A stretch of DNA of 34,750 nt from Acidimicrobiia bacterium (GTDB taxonomy: Bacteria; Actinomycetota; Acidimicrobiia; Spongiisociales; Spongiisociaceae), in contig VXRE01000057.1 of NCBI GenBank assembly GCA_009838635.1, positions 1 to 34,750 of the forward strand, written 5' to 3'. Positions 3,042-25,017 of the stretch are shown here, piece by piece. How positions within the stretch are numbered: position 1 is the first letter of the stretch; each line of letters starts with the position of its first letter. Under the pieces are notes generated by a model that ran no database searches, was not told the DNA's origin, and saw only the letters and a program-made list of their open reading frames with translations. The translations under genes were made by a program, and so were the position numbers.

Positions 3042-4084
3042 CCGTCGAGTCCGACCTCGGCGATCGTCTCCACCCGGCGGCTGGCGTTCCTGCGGCTCAG
3101 GTGCACCACCAGGTCGACCGCGGAGCGGAGTTGGCGCCGGATGGCGGTCTCTCCCACCCCTTCACTCCCGGTCAGAGCCAACGTCTCGATCCGCCAGAGG
3201 GCGTCCTCGGGTCCGTTGGCGTGGACGGTCGACAGGCTCCCGTCGTGGCCGGTGTTCATGGCCGAGATCATGTCTAGGGCTTCGGCGCCTCGTACCTCCC
3301 CCACGATGATGCGGTCCGGCCGGAGGCGGAGAGCGGTACGTACCAGGTCGGCCAGGGTGACCCGTCCGCGGCCCTCGGCGTTAGGAGGGCGGGCTTCGAG
3401 CCGGACCACATGACCGGCGAAGTTCAACTCAGCGGCGTCTTCGATAGTGACGATCCGCTCGCCGACCGGCACCGTCGCCGCCAGGGCGTTCAGCAAGGTC
3501 GTCTTTCCGGTGCCGGTCCCGCCGCTGACCACAATGTTCCTCCGGTCGATCACGGCCTGTTCGAGCACCATGCGCTGGGCATCGGTCATCGAACCCCAAT
3601 CGACGAAGGTGTCCAGGTTGGGAGCCACGGCGGTAAAGCGGCGGATGGCAACAATCGGCCCCCCGACCGAAACCGGCGGGACGATGGCGTGCAGGCGGCT
3701 CCCGTCGGGGAGGCGGGCGCTCACCAGAGGACTGGCCCGGTCCAGGCGCAGGCCCAACGGGGCGATGGTGCGTTCGACGGCAGCCAGGACCGCCGCGTCG
3801 TCGGCGAAGGTGACATCCGTGTGTTCCAGGACCCCTAGACGCTCCACCCAGACCTCGTCGGGGCCGTTGACGAACACGTCCGATACGGCGGGGTCCCGGA
3901 AGAGCGGCTCGATCGGGCCCATCCCCACGAGGGTGTCCACCACCACATCCACTATCCCGGGGGATGCCAGCGGCGACTCGACGGACATGATCCTCCGCAC
4001 TTCGGCCTCGGCCTGGTCCCGGCTCAACTCGACATCCGACTCGAGCACGCGCCGGAGGACGCGTTCGACTACTGCCATCGCCAT
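3020..4084 (-). CDS. CpaF/TadA family secretion ATPase
   Basis: VSGGTGTGKTTLLNAL (Walker A), RIVTIEDAAEL, RPDRIIVGEVRGAEALDMISAMNTGHDGSLSTVHAN; start at MAMAVVERVL. Confidence 0.95.
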   Translation of the reverse strand: MAMAVVERVLRRVLESDVELSRDQAEAEVRRIMSVESPLASPGIVDVVVDTLVGMGPIEPLFRDPAVSDVFVNGPDEVWVERLGVLEHTDVTFADDAAVLAAVERTIAPLGLRLDRASPLVSARLPDGSRLHAIVPPVSVGGPIVAIRRFTAVAPNLDTFVDWGSMTDAQRMVLEQAVIDRRNIVVSGGTGTGKTTLLNALAATVPVGERIVTIEDAAELNFAGHVVRLEARPPNAEGRGRVTLADLVRTALRLRPDRIIVGEVRGAEALDMISAMNTGHDGSLSTVHANGPEDALWRIETLALTGSEGVGETAIRRQLRSAVDLVVHLSRRNASRRVETIAEVGLDGCRETAC

Positions 4085-22832: not shown

Positions 22833-23726
22833 GTGTTCGCAGTCATCTCCTACCCGCCCATCCCGATCTTCGAGGTCGGGCCGCTGCGGATGTCGCTCCA
22901 CGGCGTCTTCGCCGGGGTGGGCTTCCTGGCCGGGGCCTACTACGGCACCCTCCGCTACCGGGCCCGGGGATTCGACGCCAACCTGTTCCAGTCGGTCCTG
23001 ACCTGGGCGCTGGTCGGCGCGCTGTTGGGTGCCCGATGGCTCACCCTGCCCGCCTACTGGGCAGAGAACGGCTTTGACGCGGGCGAGCTGATCAACATCG
23101 GCGGCAACTACTCCATCCTGGGCGGTTTCGCCGGTGGCATCGGAGCCGGTGTCTGGAGGGCCCGCCGGCTGGGGCTCCGGCTGGGACCGGCCGTGGACGT
23201 GGCCGCCTTCGGCCTGGCCATAGGAACGGTGGTGGGCCGCATCGGCGACCTGGCCATCGTGGAGCACCTCGGCGGGCCGACCCGGTTCGCCCTGGGATAC
23301 GGGATCCGGCCGGGTTACGACGTGGCCCCACAGCACGACCGACTGGAGTGCGTGACGGCGACAGTGGGGGAGTTCTGCGGTATCTACCACCATGCCGCCC
23401 TGTATGACATGCTGGTCGCGGCGGTCTGCTTCGGCTTCCTCTACTGGCTGGTCTTCCGGTCCGGCGTCCGGCTCCGCTATGGCCAGTTGTTTGCCATCTG
23501 GATGACCTGGTACGGCCTCCAGCGCTTTTTTATCGACTTCACCCGCCTCGCCCTGGATGTCGGCGGCGACCGGACCCTCGGTGCGCTGACATGGAGCCAG
23601 TGGAGCGCCCTGGCCGCCGCGGTGGGCGGCGTAGGCCTCTTCCTCTGGCTGGGCAAGCGGAATCCGGTGGTGACGCCCGAGAACGACCGAGCCCAAGGCG
23701 CCGCGGCCCACCATGAGGACGGGTAG
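22833..23726 (+). CDS. lgt: Prolipoprotein diacylglyceryl transferase
   Basis: GPLRMSLHGVFAGVGFLAGAYYG, GRIGDLAIVEHLGGPT, multiple TM helices, C-terminal RFFIDFTRL. Confidence 0.85.
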   Translation: MFAVISYPPIPIFEVGPLRMSLHGVFAGVGFLAGAYYGTLRYRARGFDANLFQSVLTWALVGALLGARWLTLPAYWAENGFDAGELINIGGNYSILGGFAGGIGAGVWRARRLGLRLGPAVDVAAFGLAIGTVVGRIGDLAIVEHLGGPTRFALGYGIRPGYDVAPQHDRLECVTATVGEFCGIYHHAALYDMLVAAVCFGFLYWLVFRSGVRLRYGQLFAIWMTWYGLQRFFIDFTRLALDVGGDRTLGALTWSQWSALAAAVGGVGLFLWLGKRNPVVTPENDRAQGAAAHHEDG

Positions 23727-23796
23727 GGGTCGAGGACATCAACCCAAGGCCGTTTCGGGTTGTCGGCCCGGTCGCCGATGGGGTAACCTGCCCGGC

Positions 23797-23868
23797 GTGA
23801 CTTCTACCCAGGTGTATTCGTACTTCGCCTTTACCGGGCCCGGTGCCCGGGCCTGGCGCGACGTCTAG
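23797..23868 (+). CDS. Aromatic amino acid leader peptide (M/V)TSTQVYSYFAFTGPGARAWRDV
   Basis: Not in the ORF track. 23-codon ORF GTG...TAG with 2 Tyr, 2 Phe, 1 Trp. -10-like TAACCT at 23784-23789 suggests a leaderless start. Precedes the DAHPS/chorismate-mutase gene. Confidence 0.75.
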   Translation: MTSTQVYSYFAFTGPGARAWRDV

Positions 23869-23917
23869 ACCGAACCTGTCGTAGAAAAGCCAAGGCCCGG
23901 AGCGCCCGCTCCGGGCG
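23834..23917 (+). promoter_or_regulatory. Transcription attenuator with mutually exclusive hairpins
   Basis: Seg1 CCGGGCCCGG (23834-23843) pairs with seg2 CCGGGCCTGG (23847-23856); seg2 CCGGGCC (23847-23853) is also complementary to seg3 GGCCCGG (23894-23900); seg3 GCCCGGAGCG (23895-23904) pairs perfectly with seg4 CGCTCCGGGC (23907-23916), followed by GCTTT. Confidence 0.75.
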
Positions 23918-23955
23918 CTTTGACGTCCGGAGCGAATCCGACACAGAGGAGCATC

Positions 23956-25017
23956 ATGGAACGCAGAGCACTACGCAACGGATCGCCCACGGACACCATC
24001 GTCGAGGTGGGCGACACCAGGTTCGGGCACGACCCTTTCCCGACCATCGCAGGCCCTCGGGCGGTCGAGTCGGACGATCAGATCATGGAGGTCGCCACCG
24101 CGGTGGCGGATGCGGGCGCCGCCGTCCTCCGGGGCGGGGTGTACGAGTCGACCGCCTCGCCGTACGAGTTCCCGGGTCTGGGCCGGCCCGGCCTGGAGTT
24201 GTTGCGGGACGCCGGAGCCGAGGTGGGCCTGCCCACCGTCACCAAGGCCTTGGAACCCAAGGACGTGGAGCTGGTCGCCTCGCACGTGGACATGATCCAC
24301 GTCGACCCCCGCTCCATGCAGAACTTCGAGTTGCTACGCGTCATCGGCGGGACGGGGAAGCCGGTGCTGCTCGAGCGCGGGGGGTCCGCCACGGTGGACG
24401 AGTGGCTGTGGGCGGCCGAGTACGTACTCGCCGAGGACAATGACCAGGTGGTGCTGTGCGAGGGCGGCATCCGTACCTTCGAGAAGTCGACCCGGGCCAC
24501 CCTCGACCTGAGTTCCATTCCGGTCCTCAAGGAGATCAGCCACCTGCCGGTCATCGTGGCTCCTTCCGCCGCCGCCGGCTCCCGGACCAGGATCCAGCCC
24601 CTGTCGCTGGCCGCCCAGGGGGTCGGCTCCGACGGGCTGATGGTGGAGGTTCACCCGGATCCGATGGCGGCCCGTACCAGCTCGTCACACCAGATCACGT
24701 TCGAGATGTTCACCGATCTGATGGACGCGCTGGGCGTCAACCGGGTCCGGATGAACATCGACATGATCGACCGCGACCTGGTCCGCCTGCTGGCGCGCCG
24801 GCATCTCATGGTCATGCGGGTTGGCCGGATCAAGGCCGAGCGGGGGATGCCGGTCCACGTGCCCGAGCGCGAGGAGGAATTGCTGGCAGTTGTCCGGGAG
24901 GAAGCGGAACGCCATGGCCTGGACCCGGCCGAGATCGAGGGCGTCTTCGATGTCATCCTCGAGCAGTCGAGGGAGATGCAGCGCCGGGAACGCGTCCGGT
25001 CCTGGTCCCGCGCCTGA
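23956..25017 (+). CDS. Type I-beta DAHP-synthase-fold protein with C-terminal AroQ chorismate mutase domain; DAHPS active site degenerate
   Basis: DAHPS-family backbone (TIAGPRAVES, VLRGGVYESTASPYEFPGLGRPGLELL, CEGGIRTFEKSTRATLDLSSIPVLKEISHLPVIVAPSAAAG, VEVHPDP), then CM domain VRMNIDMIDRDLVRLLARRH...RIKAERGMPVHVPEREEELL...EQSREMQ. Start ATG 23956 with SD-like GAGGA. Confidence 0.9.
   Translation: MERRALRNGSPTDTIVEVGDTRFGHDPFPTIAGPRAVESDDQIMEVATAVADAGAAVLRGGVYESTASPYEFPGLGRPGLELLRDAGAEVGLPTVTKALEPKDVELVASHVDMIHVDPRSMQNFELLRVIGGTGKPVLLERGGSATVDEWLWAAEYVLAEDNDQVVLCEGGIRTFEKSTRATLDLSSIPVLKEISHLPVIVAPSAAAGSRTRIQPLSLAAQGVGSDGLMVEVHPDPMAARTSSSHQITFEMFTDLMDALGVNRVRMNIDMIDRDLVRLLARRHLMVMRVGRIKAERGMPVHVPEREEELLAVVREEAERHGLDPAEIEGVFDVILEQSREMQRRERVRSWSRA

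Follow-up and report, generated by a model that had tools for sequence, protein, structure and literature searches.

Why would a short reading frame crowded with tyrosine and phenylalanine codons sit directly upstream of a biosynthetic gene? The frame lies in a contig of an Acidimicrobiia bacterium, of which the whole analysed stretch of 34,750 nt is called the window here, and it ends 87 nt upstream of the ATG at 23956. An earlier note on this DNA had read it as the leader peptide of an attenuator and had not given the identity of the downstream gene. That gene encodes a DAHP synthase fused to a chorismate mutase (DAHPS-CM). Its product matches TIGR01361 above the cut-off (294 bits), carries a CM_2 domain at its C-terminus and has DAHP synthases as its closest solved structures. 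Aromatic amino acid synthesis begins with DAHP synthase, which catalyses its committed step.

The aromatic leader and its predicted promoter

Direct reading of the sequence found the leader ORF, the -10 hexamer and all RNA segments as the earlier note had placed them, together with a -35-like hexamer that was absent from that note (Table 1). Following its GTG, which lies 7 nt downstream of the TAACCT, the leader reads T-S-T-Q-V-Y-S-Y-F-A-F-T-G-P-G-A-R-A-W-R-D-V. Among 33 homologues, 32 have a TANNNT that ends 6-11 nt ahead of the leader start, compared to 6% expected, and at the exception (locus L074) the -10 distance would be regained with an ATG located 6 nt further upstream. This predicted geometry is consistent with that expected of a leaderless message. 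The earlier note had also counted a transcription start beyond the leader against itself; the promoter position predicts one at the leader GTG or close by. One MAG (locus L024) has ACG where the leader should start, which may reflect non-canonical initiation, decay or a sequencing error.

Table 1. Features of the leader region, in window coordinates unless a locus is named
Feature	Position	Strand	Description
Sigma-70-like promoter	23760-23789	+	-35 TTGTCG 23760-23765, 18-nt spacer, -10 TAACCT 23784-23789; predicted by sequence only
Leader ORF	23797-23868	+	GTG start 23797, 23 codons, TAG 23866-23868; VTSTQVYSYFAFTGPGARAWRDV; predicted leaderless
Regulatory codon cluster	23815-23832	+	Tyr-Ser-Tyr-Phe-Ala-Phe; aromatic identity conserved
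Segment 1	23834-23843	+	Pairs with segment 2
Segment 2	23847-23857	+	Partner of 1 or 3; includes Trp codon 23854-23856
Segment 3	23889-23903	+	23889-23900 antiterminator half; 23895-23903 terminator 5' arm
Segment 4	23908-23916	+	Terminator 3' arm, then GCTTT (weak T-run)
Segment 5	23924-23934	+	Can pair with segment 4 (11 bp, 23907-23917), looping out the T-run
Shine-Dalgarno of structural gene	23945-23951	+	AGAGGAG; read from sequence
DAHPS-CM gene	23956-25017	+	353 aa; AroA-beta/TIGR01361-type DAHP synthase, chorismate mutase domain (CM_2) at the C-terminus
Leaders in other families			Loci L132-L134, L136, L139, L142-L145, L150, L151, L185-L192, L194, L195, L201, L096, L099
pheS leader, family f2	L100, from about 2035		
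pheS leader, family f2	L101, about 3390-3520	-	

Only two short ORFs with at least four F/Y/W residues in six codons were found in the whole window, both strands included. When an aromatic short ORF was required together with a TANNNT before it and a hairpin after it, the leader at 23797 was the one site in the window, and 62 of 62 matches in related DNA (1.08 Mb, strand-specific) were leaders like it.

The window was compared with 39 distinct orthologous upstream regions. An ORF of 15-24 codons with a Tyr/Phe cluster was present in nearly all of this set, with clusters such as YSYFAFTG, FFAYFGFTG, FFAYFAFTG, TYFRFFFTG and VYYADFAFTG. Leader length and flanking residues vary across the homologues and the F/Y clusters are kept. 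The aromatic identity is retained with varying codons (TTC 54, TTT 40, TAT 25, TAC 22), and F/Y codons account for 135 of 403 codons in the leader frame compared to 6 of 372 and 62 of 372 in the other frames. The earlier note had named loss of the aromatic codons in orthologues as an observation against its reading; the Tyr/Phe codons are kept. Its description of the leader as tuned to Tyr, Phe and Trp is supported for Tyr and Phe, given their conserved codons, and not for Trp. The Trp codon lies within segment 2, so a ribosome halted on it would cover that segment and promote termination. Among the relatives, Trp occupies this position in the window's genus alone, and elsewhere Arg or another residue takes its place. 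On the grounds of codon position and of non-conservation outside the genus, we rejected Trp control for the window lineage. The control clusters of other families do contain Trp.

Alternative pairings in the leader RNA

Segments 1 and 2 can form 10 bp, including one G-U (23834-23843/23847-23856). The 2:3 pairing proposed in the earlier note is present and its extent was understated, as it comprises 8 contiguous bp (23847-23854/23893-23900) and, in the predicted fold, a bulged helix of ~11 bp. The 3:4 hairpin, previously described as a perfect stem of 10 bp, has 9 bp and a 4-nt loop (23895-23903/23908-23916), since a tenth pair would leave a loop of 2 nt. A short T-run does follow in the form of TTT only (23919-23921), less than had been claimed, compared to T4-T8 in relatives. 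A simple consensus terminator scan of the window did not call the 3:4 hairpin on the + strand. With a run of only TTT, intrinsic termination in the window's genus may be weak. The leader region folds with an MFE z of -4.15, better than 200 of 200 dinucleotide shuffles. On the minus strand, the hairpin at 23895-23916 has a better T-run (CTTGGCTTTT) and so may also stop antisense transcription.

Covariation was scored on an alignment of 31 sequences (A1) against shuffles and slid pairings. The 2:3 helix contained 25 cells with compensatory change compared to 12.4 in shuffles. Its covariation score was 0.192 compared to 0.091 +/- 0.014 in shuffles, with 0 of 500 shuffles reaching it; related sequences can beat shuffles without any structure, a caveat that the slid partners (score at most 0.104) argue against and do not remove. 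Most of the 2:3 signal came from columns 56:104 (CG14/UA12) and 57:103 (CG16/AU4/UA3/GC1), and the outer two pairs that were counted (58:102 and 59:101) are unpaired in most A1 sequences. For 1:2 plus 3:4, 98.2% of the cells were paired and the joint covariation score was above all shuffles; 3:4 itself is almost invariant among relatives. Column 104 is common to 2:3 and 3:4 and alternates between A and G, with both rival partners changing along with it, as expected of a switch. The compensatory changes thus support 2:3 and 3:4, where the earlier note had counted a lack of covariation in orthologues against itself.

Could the peptide itself, rather than tRNA charging, stall the ribosome through a conserved FTGP(G)? 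Conservation of the FTG motif is widespread among the leaders, but RNA pairing accounts for it, since the nucleotides concerned (TTTACCGGG) overlap segment 1, and the motif varies (FAG, FFG, YAG) where the RNA still pairs. We consider such nascent-peptide arrest extremely unlikely.

A ribosome was modelled by masking all of the RNA up to a point ~14 nt from the first base of the A-site codon. The window RNA without a ribosome gave P(3:4)=1.0. A stall at Phe10 gave P(2:3)=0.96 and P(3:4)=0.05, and a stall at Phe12 gave P(2:3)=0.99 and P(3:4)=0.00. Placing the stop codon in the A site brought P(3:4) back to 1.0 in the window, and masking at the stop codon yielded the terminator in 31 of 31 sequences. 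For a stall at Tyr9, the antiterminator was the minority fold in the window (0.23) and dominant in several relatives, so that Phe may be the dominant signal in the window according to this model. Little antiterminator was predicted by the simple footprint model at loci L025, L043 and L070. An alternative hairpin (AGCGCCCG/CGGGCGCU, 23901-23920) is seen beside the antiterminator in the predicted stalled state of the window and its closest relatives. The minority antiterminator at Tyr9, these three loci, the alternative hairpin and the short T-run of the window weigh against the attenuator reading. The alternation of terminator and antiterminator under the modelled ribosome agrees with the trp-type layout that had been claimed.

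The locus has a leader ORF with end-product codons, a position between a predicted promoter and a biosynthetic gene, and a 1:2 pairing together with mutually exclusive 2:3 and 3:4 pairings. The proposal of a leaderless aromatic leader with a trp-type four-segment attenuator is supported by the homologues, by covariation of both alternative pairings and by the ribosome-state folding. Collectively, these predictions suggest that the locus is very probably a ribosome-mediated transcription attenuator of the DAHPS-CM gene which senses the charging of tRNA-Tyr and tRNA-Phe. The pairings, codons and promoter placement come from sequence, folding and comparison, and from them we infer translation, termination and the amino-acid response. 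Judging from the position of the -10, transcription would start at or within a few nt of the leader GTG, leading to leaderless translation. With ample charged tRNA, a ribosome at the TAG would cover segment 2 and leave segment 3 free, 3:4 would form and transcription would stop. A shortage of Tyr or Phe would stall the ribosome at the Tyr9, Phe10 or Phe12 codon, where it would cover segment 1. Segment 2 would then capture segment 3, no terminator would form and the structural gene would be transcribed.

A fifth segment, absent from the earlier note, recurs just after the T-run. The longest 4:5 stem averaged 8.5 compared to 5.4 in shuffles (40 sequences). Segment 4 is nearly invariant, which leaves no two-sided 4:5 covariation to test, and the changes in segment 5 are one-sided and mostly compatible with pairing. 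Outside the Acidimicrobiia DAHPS-CM leaders there was no clear excess of segment 5 pairing (6.7 compared to 6.2 in shuffles). Since segment 5 is transcribed after the T-run, it should not decide termination there. Control might act on translation, with an RNA switch that exposes or hides the Shine-Dalgarno, perhaps via segments 4 and 5. Segment 4 (GCTCC) is complementary to the Shine-Dalgarno core GGAGC, segment 5 is able to occupy segment 4, and the T-run in the window is weak. However, the predicted opening of the Shine-Dalgarno hardly depends on segment 5, as barring segment 5 from pairing barely changed it (mean 0.45 versus 0.42; window 0.25 versus 0.37), and a role of segment 5 as a Shine-Dalgarno protector is not supported. 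The clear T-runs after the hairpin in relatives and the near-invariance of 3:4 also argue against translational control, which we regard as quite unlikely compared to transcription attenuation.

Distribution of the leader

A homologous leader was found upstream of the orthologous DAHPS-CM gene in 35 of the 41 related genomes with the fusion gene. A covariance model (R1) built from A1 was searched in 59 relatives, and the placement of its matches was counted by comparing coordinates. There were 38 matches, 35 of them directly upstream of DAHPS-CM, two of pheS and one of an AroG-type DAHP synthase. The six fusion-gene genomes with no match at this position are five of genus g9 and G042. The DAHPS-CM leader of g9 is degraded (loci L026-L029); in G042 the DAHPS frame is extended at its N-terminus and there is no such leader. 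The AroG-type gene was present in 5 of 5 sampled g9 genomes and in 0 of 6 other genomes tested. Each of the five g9 AroG-type genes is preceded, at a distance of ~150 nt (loci L205-L209), by a promoter, 2:3 arms, a T8 terminator and a YFF leader, MNVARFSSYYFFGPTGSK or a variant of it. The other TIGR01361 DAHP synthase of the window's own genome (G000:C91) showed no aromatic leader by the same scan and thus serves as an internal negative control.

The g9 arrangement also bears on a plainer explanation of the window, in which the 3:4 hairpin merely terminates an upstream gene and the short ORF is incidental. An lgt-like gene on the same strand ends at 23726 with the GC-rich hairpin downstream of it. 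The hairpin, however, lies ~170 nt past lgt, beyond the conserved promoter and ORF. A plain terminator needs neither promoter, aromatic codons nor 2:3 covariation, all of which are conserved, and the same arrangement stands before AroG-type genes in another genus. An lgt terminator is very unlikely.

In families f24, f25, f27, f28 and f54, leaders such as MKRYFWFFGTSGHPGAFAL, MQRCVGFWFFYGGHDPA, MPHATYYFWFQGRFFAGPGTERAADRT and MKLYFAWWYLGSRSPAAPATTRF precede TIGR01361 DAHP synthases. Many of the aromatic leaders in other families have Trp in the cluster (YFWFF, FWFFY), and the hairpins are strong. R1 found several of the leaders in these other families with weak E-values. Their longest 2:3 stem was 6.9 compared to 6.2 in shuffles, not clearly above chance, and we therefore claim only leader codons, -10 and hairpin for these families. 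No such leader was seen in many other families of the phylum. A model search of 299 genomes gave matches in six, two of which (L097 and L098) look like unrelated hairpins; as only ten candidates per genome were scored, this low yield is not evidence of absence.

Phe-containing leaders with hairpins precede pheS in two f2 genomes (VQHDRLRFAFTGPVARAVAVV and MVDTRFTSVSFTGGAARER). None was found at 30 further pheS loci scanned, including that of the window's genome, and we rejected pheS leaders as a general feature.

Together, these observations lead us to suggest, tentatively and with slightly less than even confidence, a previously unrecognised class of attenuators for DAHP synthase that extends across several families of the phylum beyond Acidimicrobiia. 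It would have Tyr/Phe clusters in Acidimicrobiia and Tyr/Phe/Trp clusters elsewhere, and would sit at whichever DAHP synthase carries control, one lineage having moved it from DAHPS-CM to the AroG-type gene. The Acidimicrobiia version would add a segment 5 that folds around the U-run after read-through.

Relation to known attenuators

None of the 4227 families of Rfam release 15 matched the window or 18 related loci at the curated score, and the sub-threshold matches were to only two unrelated sRNA families. A search of open-licence papers for attenuator, leader peptide and Acidimicrobi* found none. The principle of attenuation is known; the widespread DAHPS-CM leader family has no Rfam entry, and no description of it was found. 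For a class with few cultured members, this provides a regulatory RNA family that is well conserved and acts, on the present reading, at the first step towards the aromatic amino acids. The leader is a gene of the 15-24 codon type that routine annotation misses, and it provides the design for a small, naturally occurring reporter of Phe/Tyr charging in high-GC bacteria.

A survey of Actinobacteria in 2005 reported that phenylalanine and tyrosine operons lacked conserved RNA structures in their upstream regions (Seliverstov et al., PMC1262725), a gap in Phe/Tyr RNA control that the present family fills, and the table of leader attenuators of S. lividans has no Phe/Tyr leader (PMC8079986). The window locus resembles the actinobacterial trp, leu, ilv and cys leaders, which are leader-peptide attenuators of high-GC genomes, several of them leaderless (PMC1262725, PMC8079986). 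It shares with the Yanofsky-type attenuators pheL-pheA, pheST and trpL-trpE of Enterobacteria the end-product leader codons and the 1:2, 2:3 and 3:4 alternatives. In contrast to these, it has a predicted leaderless start without a Shine-Dalgarno, a mixed Tyr/Phe cluster and DAHP synthase as the target.

The closest precedent, compared by description, is the aroR-aroF attenuator of C. glutamicum (Neshat et al. 2014, cited through PMC11802643; also PMC4046766). It is reported to have a Phe-Tyr-Phe leader at a DAHP synthase gene, where stalling raises transcription, with Phe limitation mattering and Tyr availability not. Both systems place a Phe/Tyr leader upstream of a DAHP synthase gene within the same phylum, whereas the enzyme here is a DAHP synthase of the AroA-beta (B. 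subtilis/Thermotoga) type fused to chorismate mutase, and segment 5 is present at the window locus.
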